Of a DNA stretch of 64,000 bases, positions 4,570-57,066 are shown piece by piece. The stretch covers positions 3,410,001-3,474,000 of the forward strand of contig NZ_CP151275.1 of the NCBI RefSeq assembly GCF_038235435.1, given 5' to 3'. Source of the DNA: Niveibacterium sp. SC-1 (GTDB lineage: Bacteria > Pseudomonadota > Gammaproteobacteria > Burkholderiales > Rhodocyclaceae). A program made the position numbers and the translations under genes. Below the pieces are notes generated by a model. That model did no database searches. It had not been told where the DNA came from and saw nothing but the letters and a program-made list of their open reading frames with translations. Each line of letters begins with the position of its first letter. The first letter of the stretch is position 1.

Positions 4570-7049
<2,480 letters not shown>

Positions 7050-7052
7050 GTA

Positions 7053-7238
7053 TCAGCGGAAAAGAATAAGCAGGACGAGCCCGATCAGGATCGAGGTCAG
7101 ACCGATGAAGCGGATCTGGCCTTCGGCAAGGCGGGCAATCTGCAAAAACAGGCGGCGCCAGACCGACGGCGCCACAAAGGGCAAGAGGCCTTCGAGCACC
7201 AACAACAGCGCGAAGGCCACCAGCAGCTTGTCGAGCAT
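7053..7238 (-). CDS. DUF2065 small inner-membrane protein
   Basis: A 61-aa protein with two predicted transmembrane segments (about residues 5-22 and 43-60) separated by a short loop with WRRLFLQIARL. Length and position between hflC and hisZ match the DUF2065 (YjeT-type) family that commonly follows hflKC. Function is unknown; association with HflKC complexes is only suggested by gene order. It starts 2 bp after the hflC stop. Confidence 0.85.
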   Translation of the reverse strand: MLDKLLVAFALLLVLEGLLPFVAPSVWRRLFLQIARLAEGQIRFIGLTSILIGLVLLILFR

Positions 7239-7240
7239 GA

Positions 7241-8128
7241 CTACTTGCCGTTGGCCTTGGCCCCGGCGCCCGCTCGGTAGTACTTGAAGAAATCCGAACT
7301 CGGGTCGACCACCAGCACGTCAGACCGGCTGCGGAAGCTCTGGCGATAGGCCTCAAGGCTGCGATAGAACGCGTAGAACTCGGGGCTGCGACCGAAGGCC
7401 TCGGCGTAGATCGCAGCCGCCTTCGCATCGCCTTCGCCCTTCACCCGTTGCGCGTCACGGTAAGCCTCGGCAACGATGATTTCACGCTGCCGATCAGCAT
7501 CGGCACGGATCTTCTCCGCTTCCGCCGAGCCCTGCGAACGCAGTTCGTTGGCTACGCGCTTGCGCTCGGCCTCCATCCGTCGATAGACGGACTCGCTCAC
7601 GTCGCTGGGGAGCTCGACGCGCTTCAAGCGCACATCCACGATGTTCACGCCGATCTTGCGTGCGTCCAGATCAGCCCGGCGACGCATCTCGGTCATGATG
7701 TTCTCGCGCTCACCCGAGACGACTTCGTGCACCGTGCGCTTACCGAATTCCTCGCGCAGACCTGCATTCACCGTCTGCTCGAGACGGGTGCGCGCGCGCG
7801 CTTCGTCCCCGCCCACCGAGATGTAGTAAAGCTTGGGATCAACGATGCGCCATTTGACGAACAGATCCACCAGCACGTTTTTCTTCTCGCTGGTGATGAA
7901 GCGTTCCGGCTCATCCGTCTCGAAGGTCAGGATGCGCTTGTCGAAATAGCGCACGTTCTGGACCAAGGGTGTTTTCCAATAGAGACCGGGATCGATCGCG
8001 ACCTTACGCACCTCCCCCAATTGGAAGACGATTGCGTACTGGCGCTGATCAACCGTGAAGAGCGCCATGGATACGATGGCAATGATGGCAAGCAACAGGC
8101 CCGCGAAGAGCGGCAGACGTTCGCGCAT
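7241..8128 (-). CDS. hflC: Protease modulator HflC
   Basis: A 295-aa SPFH/band-7 protein with one N-terminal membrane anchor (residues about 7-26) and a periplasmic SPFH domain (PGLYWKTPLVQNVRYFDKR). A long Ala/Glu/Arg-rich coiled-coil follows around 170-235. With HflK it forms the large periplasmic cage around FtsH and regulates its proteolysis of membrane substrates. The start ATG overlaps the hflK stop (TGATG), consistent with equimolar production. The C-terminal FYRSLEAYRQSF segment is a family signature. Confidence 0.95.
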   Translation of the reverse strand: MRERLPLFAGLLLAIIAIVSMALFTVDQRQYAIVFQLGEVRKVAIDPGLYWKTPLVQNVRYFDKRILTFETDEPERFITSEKKNVLVDLFVKWRIVDPKLYYISVGGDEARARTRLEQTVNAGLREEFGKRTVHEVVSGERENIMTEMRRRADLDARKIGVNIVDVRLKRVELPSDVSESVYRRMEAERKRVANELRSQGSAEAEKIRADADRQREIIVAEAYRDAQRVKGEGDAKAAAIYAEAFGRSPEFYAFYRSLEAYRQSFRSRSDVLVVDPSSDFFKYYRAGAGAKANGK

Positions 8129-48856: not shown

Positions 48857-49807
48857 CTAGTTGTGAAGAGTCAAGACGTTGTTTGCGTGTTCTGAGAGAC
48901 GGGCCATAGGTACATGGCATCCGATGCCGTAATGCGGGCGGTGCCAGTTGTAGTAGTGATTCCAAAGGGTCAGAGCCGTGCCGCGCTCATGAGAATTCTG
49001 GTAAGCGTGGCCGTAGGCCCATTCTCGTAGGGCGGACTGGATGAAGCGTTCGGCCTTGCCGTTGGTCTGTGGGCGGTAGGCGCGCGTGAACTTCTGCGTG
49101 ATGCCCAGTTCGACACAGGCGTGTCCAAAGGCGTGGGAGCGGAAGGCGGACCCGTTGTCGGTGATCAGCCGCTGGATTGGCACGCCCAGGGTCTTGAAGT
49201 AGTCGTGGGCCGCGCGCAGGAAGGCGATGGCACTGGAGCGGCGCTCGTCCGGATAGAGCTGGGTGAAGGCCGTGCGGCTGTGGTCGTCGATGGCCACGAA
49301 CAGATATTCCCAGCCGCAGTGCCGACTTCGATGCTGACGCTCGCCGGTAATCCGATGGCCAGTGTGCTCGAAGCGGCCGAGTTTCTTGATGTCGAGGTGC
49401 AGCAGTTCGCCGGGCGTGTCGCGCTCGTAGCGCTGCACCGGCTCGGGCGGCTGCAGATCGCTCAGTCGAGATAGCCCTGCGCGGCGCAGTACGCGGCTCA
49501 CGGTGGCGCGCGACACGCCCATGTAGCTCGCAATGCGGGCCTGCAAGAAGAGCTTGCGACGCAGCTCGACGATCGTCAGCGCCACGTCCGGGGCGATCGC
49601 GCGCGGCGAGCGCTCGGGGCGCGAGGACTTGTCGAGCAGGGCCGCAGCACCACCGGCCAGATAGCGGCCCAGCCACTTGCGCGCGGTCACCGCGCTTACG
49701 CCGTGACACGCCGCTGCCTGCGGGACTGGCAGCCCACGTTCGGTAATGTCCTGGACCATCTCCAGGCGACGCAGATACGTCAGTCGGGCATTCTTATGGG
49801 TGTTCAT
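48857..49807 (-). CDS. IS481-family transposase
   Basis: A 316-aa DDE transposase. An N-terminal helix-turn-helix (VPQAAACHGVSAVTARKWLG) precedes the rve/integrase core with the catalytic residues Asp (GELLHLDIKKLG), Asp (LITDNGSAFRSH) and Glu (QTNGKAERFIQ). The C-terminal LWNHYYNWHRPHYGIG is typical. The gene appears intact and probably functional. Its last sense codon is inside the element, but the TAG stop is provided by the CTAG of the target-site duplication. Confidence 0.95.
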   Translation of the reverse strand: MNTHKNARLTYLRRLEMVQDITERGLPVPQAAACHGVSAVTARKWLGRYLAGGAAALLDKSSRPERSPRAIAPDVALTIVELRRKLFLQARIASYMGVSRATVSRVLRRAGLSRLSDLQPPEPVQRYERDTPGELLHLDIKKLGRFEHTGHRITGERQHRSRHCGWEYLFVAIDDHSRTAFTQLYPDERRSSAIAFLRAAHDYFKTLGVPIQRLITDNGSAFRSHAFGHACVELGITQKFTRAYRPQTNGKAERFIQSALREWAYGHAYQNSHERGTALTLWNHYYNWHRPHYGIGCHVPMARLSEHANNVLTLHN

Positions 49808-52880: not shown

Positions 52881-53008
52881 CTGCAGCCCCCTCGCTCAGT
52901 TGGCGCCAGGAAATCGGTCCCGGCCTCCTGCGTGGTCGAACGGGAGCGCGCCAAATCGACAGGACATCCACCGGCTAGCAATGTCGGCAGCACACATTTG
53001 ACACTAGG

Positions 53009-53137
53009 GCAGCTCGCGCGCTGGCCAACAAGCTCGCCCGCATCTGCTACGCGGTCCTGCGCGATCACGTGCCTTACGGCACCGCGCAGTCGCCCGCGCG
53101 CAAGCTCGAACGCGCGAGCTTTGTCACCGCTGTCTGA
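53009..53137 (+). pseudogene. C-terminal relic of an IS110-family transposase
   Basis: The plus strand reads RALANKLARICYAVLRD, the characteristic C-terminal helix of IS110-type transposases, ending in TGA at 53135-53137. The rest of the gene is missing upstream. Directly after the stop comes a sequence (about 53141-53160) containing GTCTGTAGGGAGAAA. A near-identical copy with GTCTATAGGGAGAAA recurs at about 55251-55265 inside the downstream IS1111 element. A remnant of an older insertion next to the integron. Confidence 0.7.
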
Positions 53138-53413
53138 AAACCGTCTGTAGGGAGAAAGGCTTACCCCGCGCTTGCACCGAGACTGATCGCTCATCATGGC
53201 CCACCGGGTCACCCCCACGCGATGTCACGCCGATAACTCTTCCGGCTCACCCGCAGCCGTTTGTATCGTTTGGCGGCGTCGCGCGCAGATTCCATGTCGG
53301 CACGGGTCATTGCGAACCCACTTCAGATGCCGGATATACGACTGCAGGCGCTTTCCCCGGAAAAGCCAGACCTTCGATCAGCCTTGATTTAGGGGGGAGT
53401 CCATATAGGAAGG
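53138..53413. other. Unassigned junction segment at the end of the cassette array
   Basis: A 276-bp stretch between the IS110 relic and the truncated attC of cassette 2. On the minus strand it contains overlapping short frames coupled by ATGA, one of 33 aa beginning MTRADMESARDAAKRYKR, but nothing with recognisable domain or good coding evidence. The attC stem that should follow cassette 2 is absent here, so this segment represents a rearrangement breakpoint. Confidence 0.5.
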
Positions 53414-53420
53414 GTTAGGC
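53414..53420 (-). other. attC R'' core of cassette 2 (truncated attC)
   Basis: GCCTAAC on the minus strand matches RYYYAAC exactly, is the complement of the core that opens cassette 2, and contains the TAA stop of the cassette gene. Beyond GCCTAACCCTTCC no L''-L' stem is found, so the attC has been cut off by rearrangement. Confidence 0.65.
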
Positions 53421-53810
53421 ATCTTGTGCGACATACGGTGCCTTGCCTGACCAAAAGCTGTTGAGGCCTTTCCACCAAGCTTGACTCTCTGGAAGAAGAA
53501 AGAGTGTGAACCGTTCAAGATCTGTGGGGCTGCAAGACCAGACATTTTGGATGCCCTCTAGGACTCCGATGGTGGCGAACTCTTTGACCCAGGGTGAGCC
53601 TTCGGTGTGAAGACGTTCGATCGCTGACGCAACGGCCGGAAACGACGACAGGTTGCCAGCTTGATGGAGGGAGAGAAGGTGCTCTGCAAATGCACCAGCT
53701 GCCACATACAACAACTCGTTTCCGTGTTCCTGCAAGTGCGCAAGCCACTCTTCGGAAAACGAAGGGCAGGCTTCGACCAAGAGCTGCATTGCTTCGTGCT
53801 GCTCGATCAT
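53415..53810 (-). CDS. Cassette 2 protein, DUF7674-like
   Basis: A 131-aa acidic soluble protein resembling the DUF7674 group: PSFSEEWLAHLQEHGNELLY near residues 16-35, and EGSPWVKEFATIGVLEGIQN near 70-89. A Trp-rich C-terminus follows. Related small proteins occur near toxins as immunity-type proteins, but the function is unproven. Start ATG 53808-53810 is 11 nt after the attC core, with almost no Shine-Dalgarno, and the stop is inside R''. Base composition is near 50 percent GC, unlike neighbouring chromosome. Confidence 0.72.
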   Translation of the reverse strand: MIEQHEAMQLLVEACPSFSEEWLAHLQEHGNELLYVAAGAFAEHLLSLHQAGNLSSFPAVASAIERLHTEGSPWVKEFATIGVLEGIQNVWSCSPTDLERFTLFLLPESQAWWKGLNSFWSGKAPYVAQDA

Positions 53811-53820
53811 TACTTGAGAT

Positions 53821-53827
53821 GCCTAAC
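53821..53827 (-). other. attC R' core (GTTAGGC) left of the IS1111 element
   Basis: Minus-strand GTTAGGC fits GTTRRRY. It is the recombination point between cassettes 1 and 2, now separated from the rest of its attC by the inserted element at its right. Confidence 0.7.
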
Positions 53828-53934
53828 GAATGAAAGGGCATTCCCCATCCCGCACCGGTCGCATGGCGACAGTGCGTTGCGGGAGCCACGATGGGATTGC
53901 AGTTCGCATTGCGGTCTCGCTGGAGGGGAAGCCC

Positions 53935-54969
53935 ATGAAAGTCATCGTGCTCGGAATCGATCTGGCCAAGCAGGTCTTCGCCCTGCATGGCGTGGATGAA
54001 CACGGCAAAGCCGTATTGATACAGCCCGCGGTGCGCCGCGACAAGCTCCTTGGTGTGGTGGCAGCGCTGCCGCCGTGCCTGATCGGGATGGAGGCGTGTT
54101 CGGGTGCACACCACTGGGCGCGGCAGTTCGTGCGCTTTGGCCACACCGTGCGCCTGATGGCGCCGAAGTTCGTTTCTCCTTACCGGCTCTCGGGCAGGCG
54201 TGGCAAGAACGATGCGGCCGATGCGGCCGCGATCTGCGAGGCGGTGCAACGCCCGCAGATGCGCTTCGTGCCGATCAAGGACGAAGCGCAGCAGGCGCAC
54301 CTGACGGTGCATCGCGTGCGCGAGGGGTTCGTGGCCGAGCGCACGGCCACGATCAATCGCCTGCGTGGGCTGCTCTCAGAGTTCGGCGTGGTGTTGCCGC
54401 TCAAGGCGAGCGTGGTGCGCCGCCAGGCGCGCGCGGCGATCGAAGCCTTGCCGGTGATCGCCCGCGAGGTGCTCGCGGATCTGCTCGAGGCCATTGCGGC
54501 ACTCGACACGCGCATCACCGCCTACGACGCGAAGCTGCGCGCCTTCGCGCGCCAGGACGGGCGTATCACGCGGCTCATGCAGCTCCCCGGCCTGGGCGAG
54601 ATCACCGCGGGGGCCTTGGTGGCCAGCGTGGGTAACGGGCATGACTTTCGTAACGGGCGGCAATTCGCCGCCTGGCTCGGACTCACGCCAGGCCAATACA
54701 GCTCCGGGGGCAAACCGCGTCTGGGGCGCATCACCAAGGCCGGGGATCGTTACCTGCGCAGCCTCCTGGTCATGGGCGCACGTGCCGTGCTCGCACTCGC
54801 CGCCCGACGCACCGATCGGGTGAGTCGCTGGGCCCATGCACTCGCACTCCGACGCGGCTATTGGCGCGCGGTCGTGGCGATCGCCGCGAAGAACGCGCGG
54901 CTCGCCTGGGCCTGCCTCGCGCGGGGTGAGGCCTTTGTGCTCAGCGGCTTCGCTGACAGTCCGCCTTGA
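53935..54969 (+). CDS. IS1111-type IS110-family transposase
   Basis: A 344-aa transposase with an N-terminal RuvC-like DEDD domain. The acidic residues are Asp9 (LGIDLAK), Glu53 (GMEAC), Asp93 and Asp96 (KNDAADAAAI). The C-terminal Tnp domain has PGLGEITAGALVASVG near 218 and the QYSSGGKPRLGRITK segment, where Ser256/257 is the expected nucleophile. The C-terminal helix is KNARLAWACLARGE. Start ATG 53935 is fixed by MKVIVLGIDLAK. It looks intact. Confidence 0.95.
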   Translation: MKVIVLGIDLAKQVFALHGVDEHGKAVLIQPAVRRDKLLGVVAALPPCLIGMEACSGAHHWARQFVRFGHTVRLMAPKFVSPYRLSGRRGKNDAADAAAICEAVQRPQMRFVPIKDEAQQAHLTVHRVREGFVAERTATINRLRGLLSEFGVVLPLKASVVRRQARAAIEALPVIAREVLADLLEAIAALDTRITAYDAKLRAFARQDGRITRLMQLPGLGEITAGALVASVGNGHDFRNGRQFAAWLGLTPGQYSSGGKPRLGRITKAGDRYLRSLLVMGARAVLALAARRTDRVSRWAHALALRRGYWRAVVAIAAKNARLAWACLARGEAFVLSGFADSPP

Positions 54970-55343
54970 AACGCCTCGCCAACCCGTACCACTCCACCTA
55001 CAACCGCGCCCCTTTTTCCGCCGAGCATGACGGCACACGTTGATGATTTCGGGTTGGACCCGCGCGAGGATTGTCCTGATTAATTCAAGGCGGCGGCACT
55101 AAGCCTGTCCGTGACTAACGATCGAGGCCCCCGCGCGCGTCTTGCATCAGGGTCCGCAGCATTTCGTTCGCTGCACCAATGACCGTTTGTAGTACCGCAG
55201 TCCGCATCCCGATTTCACGCCGTGTCGACGCTCGCCGGCGGAATGCAAAAACGTCTATAGGGAGAAAACACCCCCGCGACCCGGCCATTTCATCCGAATA
55301 GCCGAGGAGACGTATTGCTTGACTACCAGGGAAGCCCTTGTAG
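54970..55343 (+). ncRNA. Non-coding region of the IS1111 element, presumed seekRNA/bridge RNA locus
   Basis: A 370-bp tail between the transposase stop and the right end with no protein gene. In IS1111-type elements the guide RNA that specifies donor and target is known to be encoded in this downstream region; IS110-type elements carry it upstream. I infer an equivalent RNA here but cannot delimit it. A TTGACT at 55319-55324, close to the right end, could act as -35 of a junction promoter when the element circularises. Confidence 0.4.
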
Positions 55344-55344
55344 T

Positions 55345-55416
55345 AGAGGTAAGCGGATGGCGGAAAGCGGAGCGAAGCGCAGCTTTTCGCCGGTCCGCTT
55401 GACCGCCATGTTAGCC
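55345..55416 (-). other. attC of cassette 1, split by the IS1111 element
   Basis: Minus strand: R'' GGCTAAC (55416-55410), L'' GTCAAGCGGACCGGCG, a short loop with GCGCTTCGCT, then the L' complement ending CCGCTTAC (about 55357-55349). The arms pair as in attC hairpins, with one unpaired extrahelical base (the C of GTCAAGC), the feature that dictates strand choice. R' is displaced to 53821-53827 by the insertion. Recombination at this site is probably blocked. Confidence 0.75.
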
Positions 55417-55452: not shown

Positions 55453-55878
55453 TCAAAAGCACGCTCCCGCTATTGTGCAACCAATGTAAATGGCGACGAA
55501 GAGGCCGATAGGTGCAAAGACAAATGCAAGGCATGCTGCTACGCGAGGACCCCATGAGCCGAACGAAGTCTGACGAAGAACAAGCCCTGACGAAAACAGA
55601 GATGCCATGAGGATGGGCGTAAACAGTCCGACAAAAGCGGCGGGGCCTATAAACAAATTGCGAATGATCTGTTCAGTATTGGACCAACCAGCTATCGGCG
55701 TGGGGCCGTGGAAGCTATTGGCGGACAAGACTGAAGCAACCACCCAAATAAATGCGACAAGCGATGCAGCAAACACAGGTCCGGCAAAGCGCCTATGCCG
55801 ATCACGAATGGCAACGCTAATTGCGTACGCGACTGCCACTATAACTGCCCAGATCAAACCGAGAACAAGAGCGTACAT
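55453..55878 (-). CDS. Cassette 1 protein, four-helix membrane protein
   Basis: A 141-aa integral membrane protein with about four hydrophobic segments (residues 2-24, 31-53, 73-96, 112-138). No family recognised. It begins 17 nt after the attI core and ends 37 nt before its attC R'', the compact layout of a gene cassette. GC content is near 50 percent. The ATG is at 55876-55878; no Shine-Dalgarno is obvious. As first cassette it should be the most strongly expressed. Confidence 0.75.
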   Translation of the reverse strand: MYALVLGLIWAVIVAVAYAISVAIRDRHRRFAGPVFAASLVAFIWVVASVLSANSFHGPTPIAGWSNTEQIIRNLFIGPAAFVGLFTPILMASLFSSGLVLRQTSFGSWGPRVAACLAFVFAPIGLFVAIYIGCTIAGACF

Positions 55879-56010: not shown

Positions 56011-56024
56011 GTACGCATGTACAG
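56009..56024. promoter_or_regulatory. LexA box over the intI start
   Basis: CTGTACGCATGTACAG is a perfect CTGT-N8-ACAG LexA operator and is itself fully palindromic. It spans the -10 end and the ATG of intI, as in SOS-controlled integron integrases. Confidence 0.82.
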
Positions 56025-57066
56025 GTATAAAAATCCCGCGAAAGACGGCAAACCGCCGCTGCAGGCCGTGAGGCTGCTCGACCAGGTGCGGGAACGGGTC
56101 CGGTACCGGCACTACAGCCTGCGCACCGAGAAGGCCTACGTTTATTGGGTGCGCGCGTACGTCCGCTTTCACGGTCTGCGGCATCCGCGAGAAATGGGCG
56201 CCGCGGAACTGGAGGGCTTCCTCAAGTACTTGGCGGCGCAGCGCAATGTTGCTCCTGCCACGCATAACCAGGCGCTCTCGGCCCTGCTATTCCTGTACCG
56301 CGAGGTTTTGGACGTCGACTTGCCGTGGCTGCAGGACATGGGGCGACCCAAGGTTCGCGAACGGCTTCCGGTGGTGCTCTCGCAGGAGGAGACGCGTGCG
56401 CTGCTGACGGCGGTGGAGCCGGACCTGTCTTGCCTCGCGCGCCTGATCTACGGCACCGGCACGCGGTTGATGGAAGCACTGCGCTTGCGCGTGAAGGATG
56501 TGGATTTTGAGCGCGGCTGCATCGTGGTGCGCGAGGGCAAGGGCGGGAAGGACCGCGTATTGATGCTCCCCGCCTCGCTGGAGAAGGATTTGCGTGACGC
56601 CTTGGCCGGAGCCCGTGTCATCTGGGCCGCTGACCGCGCCGCAGACGCGCCAGGAGTGTTCATGCCGGATGCGCTGGCGCGCAAGTATCCGCGGGCCGAC
56701 CGAAGCTGGGCGTGGTTCTGGGCGTGGTTCTGGGCGTGGTTCTGGGTGTGGCCTTCGCCGGTGGAGTCCACCGACCCCGTCACCGGCATCGTGCGTCGCC
56801 ATCATCTCTACGAAGGCCGACTTCAGCGCGCCTTGCGCAGTGCGCGCGAACGCGCCGGGATCGCTAAACCGCTGAGCGTGCATACGCTGCGGCATTCCTT
56901 TGCGACGCATCTGCTGGAAGCCGGGCAGGACATCCGTACGGTGCAGGAACTGCTCGGCCACGCGGATGTGTCCACGACCATGATCTACACGCATGTGCTG
57001 CGCCGCGGCGTGCTCGGGGTGCAGAGCCCTCTGGACCGATTGCCGGCGCAGCCACGCGGCTCCTGA
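56017..57066 (+). CDS. intI: Integron integrase IntI
   Basis: A 349-aa tyrosine recombinase that inserts and excises gene cassettes at attI and attC. It has an N-terminal SAM-like domain ([19 protein letters not shown]) and a catalytic domain with Arg150 ([16 protein letters not shown]), His289-Arg292 ([15 protein letters not shown]), His315 (LGHADVS) and Tyr324 (MIYTH). The integron-specific insert around residues 205-260 ([20 protein letters not shown], then [13 protein letters not shown]) separates it from XerC/D and is extended here by repeated WAWF units. Start ATG 56017 lies inside the LexA box; length before the conserved VRERVRY region equals that of class 1 IntI. All catalytic residues are intact. 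Confidence 0.95.
56707..56754 (+). repeat. 12-bp tandem repeat in intI encoding WAWF units
   Basis: TGGCGTGGTTC-like unit TGGGCGTGGTTC occurs three times perfectly (56707-56742) and a fourth time degenerate (56743-56754). Translated: three WAWF copies then WVWP. Class 1 IntI has a single equivalent (SWPWFWVF), so two extra units are inferred. The unit length keeps the frame. Confidence 0.9.

Follow-up and report, generated by a model that had tools for sequence, protein, structure and literature searches.

An IS1111-family element at the R' end of an integron attC site in Niveibacterium sp. SC-1, with a predicted guide RNA and a lineage distinct from that of known IS1111-attC elements

The closest described systems are the transposons of the IS1111 family, a group of which is inserted in the attC sites of integron cassettes. 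In excerpts of PMC11187229, IS1111 elements are characterized by subterminal inverted repeats of about 11-13 bp, terminal extensions of 6-7 bp and 3 bp, and a transposase motif of the form GL-P----S(t)G. The same excerpts state that ISPst6 shares the target of ISKpn4, and it is solely through that description that ISPst6 is placed with the attC group here. A further point of reference is IS621 of the IS110 group, one of two solved relatives, which like the element described below combines a DEDD transposase with a two-loop guide RNA addressing target and donor; however, according to the excerpted text of PMC11208160, the guide RNA of the IS110 group lies upstream of the transposase, and 2-3-bp repeats are found in place of long subterminal ones. 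Group IIC-attC introns are also mobile and land in attC (PMC9229058, in excerpt), but they are retrotransposing introns unrelated to these transposons.

The window considered here is the whole stretch of 64,000 nt that was analysed (Niveibacterium sp. SC-1, assembly GCF_038235435.1, contig NZ_CP151275.1, positions 3,410,001-3,474,000 of the forward strand). It contains an integron with one integrase on the + strand and two cassette ORFs on the - strand, between which an IS1111-family element is situated on the + strand. The integrase (56017-57066; TIGR02249, 440 bits) is the only gene of its genome over the cut-off of that profile, and its frame is open with the expected motifs; an in-frame tandem repeat with units tgggcgtggttc is present at 56700-56760, with the frame still open. 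The cassette 1 ORF (55453-55878) codes for 141 aa of no known family, and a search for it was positive in 1 of 369, namely the window's own genome. The cassette 2 ORF (53415-53810) codes for 131 aa with a DUF7674 domain. Cassette DNA was looked for in plasmids and none was found. Cassette 1 starts at attI with TTAGCC and ends with the R'' sequence GGCTAAC; these are complementary and the cassette thus looks normally acquired. Elsewhere in the window an apparently intact IS481-family transposase is encoded at 48857-49807 on the - strand.

The element occupies 53828-55342 (1,515 bp), with both ends recurring at the same positions in its relatives. Its left end comprises a 6-bp extension, GAATGA, followed by the subterminal repeat AAGGGCATTCCC (53834-53845), and its right end the repeat GGGAAGCCCTT (55329-55339) followed by the 3-bp extension GTA. 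The repeats are imperfect, the 12 bp of AAGGGCATTCCC differing from the 11 bp of the reverse complement of GGGAAGCCCTT by one single-base indel, and the pair is absent from the 25 longest pairs returned by an unguided inverted-repeat search. The transposase (53935-54969, + strand; 344 aa plus stop, frame intact) possesses the DEDD_Tnp_IS110 (PF01548) and Transposase_20 (PF02371) domains and matches the 'IS110 family RNA-guided transposase' profile NF033542 with 348 bits; a GLTPGQYSSG motif, which conforms to the IS1111 definition, and DEDD-type residues were identified by eye. The bulk of the non-coding DNA lies downstream of the gene (54970-55342, 373 bp, as against 107 bp upstream), as is typical of IS1111, and the repeats and the extensions of 6 and 3 bp likewise agree with the family anatomy excerpted from PMC11187229. 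The element is thus a member of the IS1111 family. A candidate end near 55210, taken from blastn, was discarded: the alignment of relatives places a variable stretch there and the true end at 55342. One intact copy of the element is present in the genome.

The attC site of cassette 1 (attC1, - strand) is divided by this element in such a way that the stretch from 53821 to 55416 runs exactly from one of its outer boxes to the other. The R' box lies on one side (53821-53827, GCCTAAC on the + strand; the 3' part belongs to cassette 2), while the spacer, L', centre, L'' and R'' lie on the other (55343-55416), with R'' reading GTTAGCC on the + strand at 55410-55416. No target duplication was seen, and one G at the junction may be assigned to the left or the right side. 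The junction is backed by a locus of a same-family genome (L115), in which CTAAC/element/GCCTGAATTAAGCC (slashes here and below mark borders and insertion points) matches the uninterrupted R'-L' halves in L102, L105 and L107. When rejoined, the 81-nt bottom strand folds into a canonical attC hairpin (MFE -22.0 kcal/mol with DNA parameters) in the order R''-L''-L'-R', and with L'/L'' paired around an extra-helical base; complete pairing of the R box gives -21.2 kcal/mol. For a 91-nt version the MFE is -25.3, whereas 500 dinucleotide shuffles average -15.1 +/- 2.3 (z -4.5; 0/500 as low); the MFE structure of this longer version mispairs the outer boxes. The earlier note, made from the letters of the sequence, had described an IS1111-type element sitting precisely in an attC site, with R' on one side and the other boxes on the other, subterminal repeats just inside the ends and no target duplication. 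The domains, the anatomy and the rejoined hairpin bear this description out to the base, with the provisos of the indel and the ambiguous G; the note had named the failure of the joined flanks to form a normal hairpin as evidence against itself, and a normal hairpin was obtained.

This position recurs among relatives, which were drawn from the best 80 of the 151 found. In the closest lineage the left end is in most cases CTAAC/GAATGAAAGG, and CCCTTGTA/G is the sequence at nearly every right end that was located. The right flank was tested for attC among the loci whose transposase is at least 63% identical, a set of 42 that contains the window but not L034. Of these, 32 were testable; 18 gave p<=0.05 against 1.6 expected, the window itself having p=0.005. 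Reading by eye, L011, L019, L023, L050 and L069 (the last 60% identical and outside this test) are attC sites; L012, L015, L017, L022, L025, L026, L037 and L071 are not attC-like; L016 and L038 are ambiguous; and L029, which passed the test, appeared not attC-like or ambiguous. A congeneric genome (G369) carries three copies with 83% transposase identity in what by eye are three different attC sites, all downstream of an integrase gene and in an identical attC position and orientation (L120, G369:C1 1298000-1317900). A genome of the same family as the window (G400) has five copies, by eye three in attC (L112, L115, L117) and two elsewhere (L118, L119). In the SC-1 genome itself, a left end like that of the window element, but degenerate, is found at 3.018 Mb within L098, where a cassette-like cluster without an integrase extends over 5000-7300 (G000:C1 ~3.017-3.019 Mb). 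The same genome harbors eight copies (L002-L009) of a 52% identical IS1111 relative with TGAATCAATGG / GTACGCCCC-like ends, which are not at attC. The viral contigs searched yielded no match.

The downstream non-coding region contains a predicted guide (seek/bridge) RNA core at 55053-55203. The consensus structure of 35 relatives has 28 pairs, of which 15 show changes on both sides, with 96% of cells paired; a search of Rfam returned one chance-level match only. The predicted right target guide (RTG, 55076-55090) and left target guide (LTG, 55113-55127, containing the CTAAC of R') form opposing arms of one internal loop, and are followed by predicted guides to the element's own left end (RDG, 55139-55149) and, by eye, own right end (LDG, 55184-55194, TTTGTAG). 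Guides and flanks were compared at 65 loci, with a right flank and RTG available in 50 (42 distinct) and a left flank and LTG in 56 (49 distinct); the RTG window of L035 was misread here, and corrected in the shuffled-flank tests, and L017 has no RTG window. RTGs score 7.01 with their own right flanks against 4.70 with others (42 rows), and LTGs 4.81 against 4.13 with left flanks (49 rows), both values being reached in 0/20,000 permutations, which leave shared ancestry uncorrected. Within the set of at least 63% identity the values are 6.80 against 4.93 (RTG, 32 rows) and 4.90 against 4.44 (LTG, 36 rows), again with 0/20,000 permutations. A locus's own guide ranks first, alone or in a tie, in 16 of 42 cases for the RTG and 25 of 49 for the LTG. 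Strong individual matches are those of L012 and L015, described below, and of L022, L025, L050 (11 nt), L034 and L062.

In the window copy the LTG matches exactly and the RTG weakly: 24 of the other 41 guides outscore its own, and against shuffled flanks it has p 0.705, or 0.243 under a second scoring that was chosen afterwards. Taken as a set, which was partly picked by eye, 22 attC loci pair at 6.59 against 4.76 for shuffled flanks (0/1,000), with 5 of them having p above 0.48; adding the three congeneric copies under the second scoring gives 7.80 against 6.81 (0/300), none of the three being significant singly. CTAAC is contained in the LTG at 21 of the 22 attC loci, and at some non-attC loci too.

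These observations are best accommodated by a model in which the non-coding DNA that follows the transposase gene would give rise to a seekRNA/bridge RNA, the LTG of this RNA would read the R' box (CTAAC) and its RTG the spacer and L' box, and the circular element would be joined at CTAAC/G, separating R' from L' and lying antiparallel to the cassette. The insertion point presumably lies about 1 base from the integrase crossover. In the known IS1111-attC elements the R'' box would be read by the other guide arm, with insertion between L'' and R''. We consider it likely that the window element is an RNA-guided IS1111 element of this kind, reading the R' end of attC and belonging to a separate lineage that has converged on attC targeting. 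The predicted RNA is presumably made and guides insertion, and the window copy may be active, although this is less sure because its donor guide is one base off the usual form of its relatives by eye (TTGCAT in place of the TTTCAT or CTTCAT of most relatives).

Alternatively, the transposase might recognize the folded attC hairpin, single-stranded or as a cruciform, with the guide matches being secondary, as the earlier note implied in holding that such elements target by structure. The number of relatives at attC hairpins and the weak right-guide pairing in the window and the three congeneric copies would fit such a mechanism. However, L012, L015, L022 and L025 occupy sites that fail the attC test and match their own altered guides: L012 is flanked by GCATAAG on the left and CGTGGGTGC on the right, both of which are found in its guides, and the ATAGC and GTCAAGCAG flanks of L015 are similarly matched. 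Elements related to IS1492, ISPsy16 and IS5708 also lie at other repeat-like sites with matching guides. The earlier note had regarded the occurrence of relatives at unrelated targets as contrary to its reading; such relatives do occur, but with corresponding guide changes. Targeting by structure only was rejected on this ground, and a primary role for the hairpin appears unlikely. The covariation of guides with flanks, also at non-attC targets, argues instead that the aiming is most likely RNA-guided sequence matching.

The element could also be an ordinary member of the IS1111-attC group (ISPst6/ISKpn4/ISPa25) with the same mode of action, the signature of which the earlier note had seen here. 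The two indeed share the IS1111 anatomy with a guide region downstream of the transposase, the type of host site and insertion antiparallel to the cassettes, and the diverged ISPa25 shares the target of ISKpn4 in the excerpted text of PMC11187229. Their position in attC, however, is the mirror image. Eight plasmid loci with elements of the ISKpn4, ISPa21, ISPa25, ISPa62 and ISPpu25 types were read by eye, selected among 60 listed out of at least 5,000 matching records. In seven of them the element has L' and L'' on its left and, within a few bases, an R'' box on its right (e.g. CCATAT/ACGAATTGTTAGAC); R' is clearly recognizable on the left side in six of these seven; the eighth, an ISPa21-annotated copy (L101), is unlike the others not in attC. 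Thus, ISKpn4, ISPa62, ISPpu25 and ISPa25 cut attC between L'' and R'', whereas the window element cuts it between R' and L'. In the window element it is the left guide that reads R', and in the named elements, by eye, the right guide that reads R''. Their transposases are 34-41% identical to that of the window element. A tree was calculated from 48 transposases: in this tree, obtained by a quick method and with long branches, and with IS1492 and ISPsy16 not included, the R''-end group forms one side of a fully supported branch, while the R'-end elements lie elsewhere, intermixed with elements of other targets and beside an IS5708-like clade. A constraint that unites all attC targeters in a single clade costs 342 likelihood units (-342, p-AU 2e-55), and one that places the window element and L011 alone in the R'' group costs 47 (-47, p-AU 2e-5); placement within the R'' group is unsure because of the long branches. 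The window lineage is separate from the known IS1111-attC elements, and membership of that group was rejected on attC position and clade, leaving the ordinary-member reading at a low probability, slightly below that of hairpin recognition. This separation suggests that the attC targeting of the window lineage is convergent, two distinct lineages having come to use this type of target. The literature searched, the two founding papers of the group lying outside its scope, contained no description of an IS1111 insertion at the attC R' end, and an earlier description is possible.

Chance insertion or an assembly artefact, for which the single intact copy in the genome might speak, is hardly credible given the exact attC obtained on joining and the many relatives that share this junction.

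The same array contains a second IS1111-lineage remnant, of the R''-end type, at 53008-53406 (+ strand), comprising a transposase end, a non-coding region and a right end. That right end, GGGGGGAGTCCATAT, lies 7 bp from the R'' box (53414-53420, GTTAGGC on the + strand) of the truncated attC of cassette 2 (- strand), and by eye GATAACTCTTCC, which is part of the remnant's non-coding DNA, pairs with the R'' flank over 10 nt (9 Watson-Crick and one G-U). A relative with an open transposase frame is found in L078 of Herbaspirillum sp. ST 5-3, for which ISPa25, at 47-48%, is the nearest plasmid element among the matches listed; a class search with the L078 transposase, run without a positive control, recovered 0 of 274 genomes at E<=1e-120. 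Two further degenerate right ends of the R''-end type are present in L098. Two lineages have therefore struck two neighbouring attC sites from opposite ends. An 81-bp remnant-like stretch on plasmid pAZKH of Azoarcus sp. KH32C (L099) adjoins a one-strand row of small genes resembling a cassette cluster.

The nearest named elements of the window lineage are IS1492, ISPsy16 and IS5708, with 62-65% identical transposases. They share with it the lineage, the left end GAATG, the C/G junction and the guide layout, but differ in possessing other guides and sites of the form CTTARC/GTA. IS1492 and ISPsy16 are found at CTTAGC/GTACGA-type sites, one ISPsy16 locus and the IS5708 locus having no readable right end, and CTTAAC/GTACAATAATTTTCGATATCCAAACTGACCCC is an example of the sites of IS5708-like loci; of 18 scanned flanks, which include that of the attC locus L069, 12 have a CCCC-like end at the corresponding distance. 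We take these sites to resemble the inverted repeats of Tn3-family transposons; in one IS5708-like copy (L046) a Tn3 transposase gene adjoins the element. IS5708-, IS1492- or ISPsy16-like elements at Tn3-repeat-like sites with matching guides were noted at L046, L131, L132, L135 and part of L034-L067. In L062 and L066 a change of guide is accompanied by a change of target. The name 'IS5075-like', considered for an enterobacterial clade at 60-63%, was dropped, the annotation being IS5708 or ISShdy1 and IS4321 being 36% identical. On balance, we favor the broader proposal, with less assurance than the guided-insertion model itself, that a second, so far unrecognized lineage of RNA-guided IS1111 elements specializes on the recombination ends of other mobile elements, guide changes having moved it between Tn3-family inverted repeats (CTTARC/G) and attC R' (CCTAAC/G) in convergence with the known IS1111-attC lineage, both being present in one integron.

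With regard to the array, neither cassette retains an intact attC, that of cassette 1 being split and that of cassette 2 cut at R''. The earlier note had held that the insertion locks cassette 2. The attC broken by it is that of cassette 1; cassette 2, the R' of which lies beyond the element, should nevertheless be locked too, because its own attC was cut at R'' by the second remnant. Both cassettes are probably immobilized and not excisable by the usual attC reactions. As regards the suggestion in the same note that array turnover may have stopped, attI may still accept cassettes: it seems undisturbed, and the integrase has an open frame and its expected motifs, so new cassettes might enter. 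That IS1111 insertions possibly freeze arrays has already been proposed for ISPa21, in excerpts of PMC11616780.

If the proposed model is correct, attC targeting would have arisen at least 2 times among RNA-guided transposons, at mirror positions and through different guide arms. The relatives, dozens of elements of which several are retargeted, would constitute a natural guide-target dataset for the targeting rules of IS1111, including those on core bases and mismatch tolerance, and through it the question of sequence or structure in attC recognition would become directly testable. For integrons, the locus illustrates a route by which cassette mobility is lost while attI may stay open.
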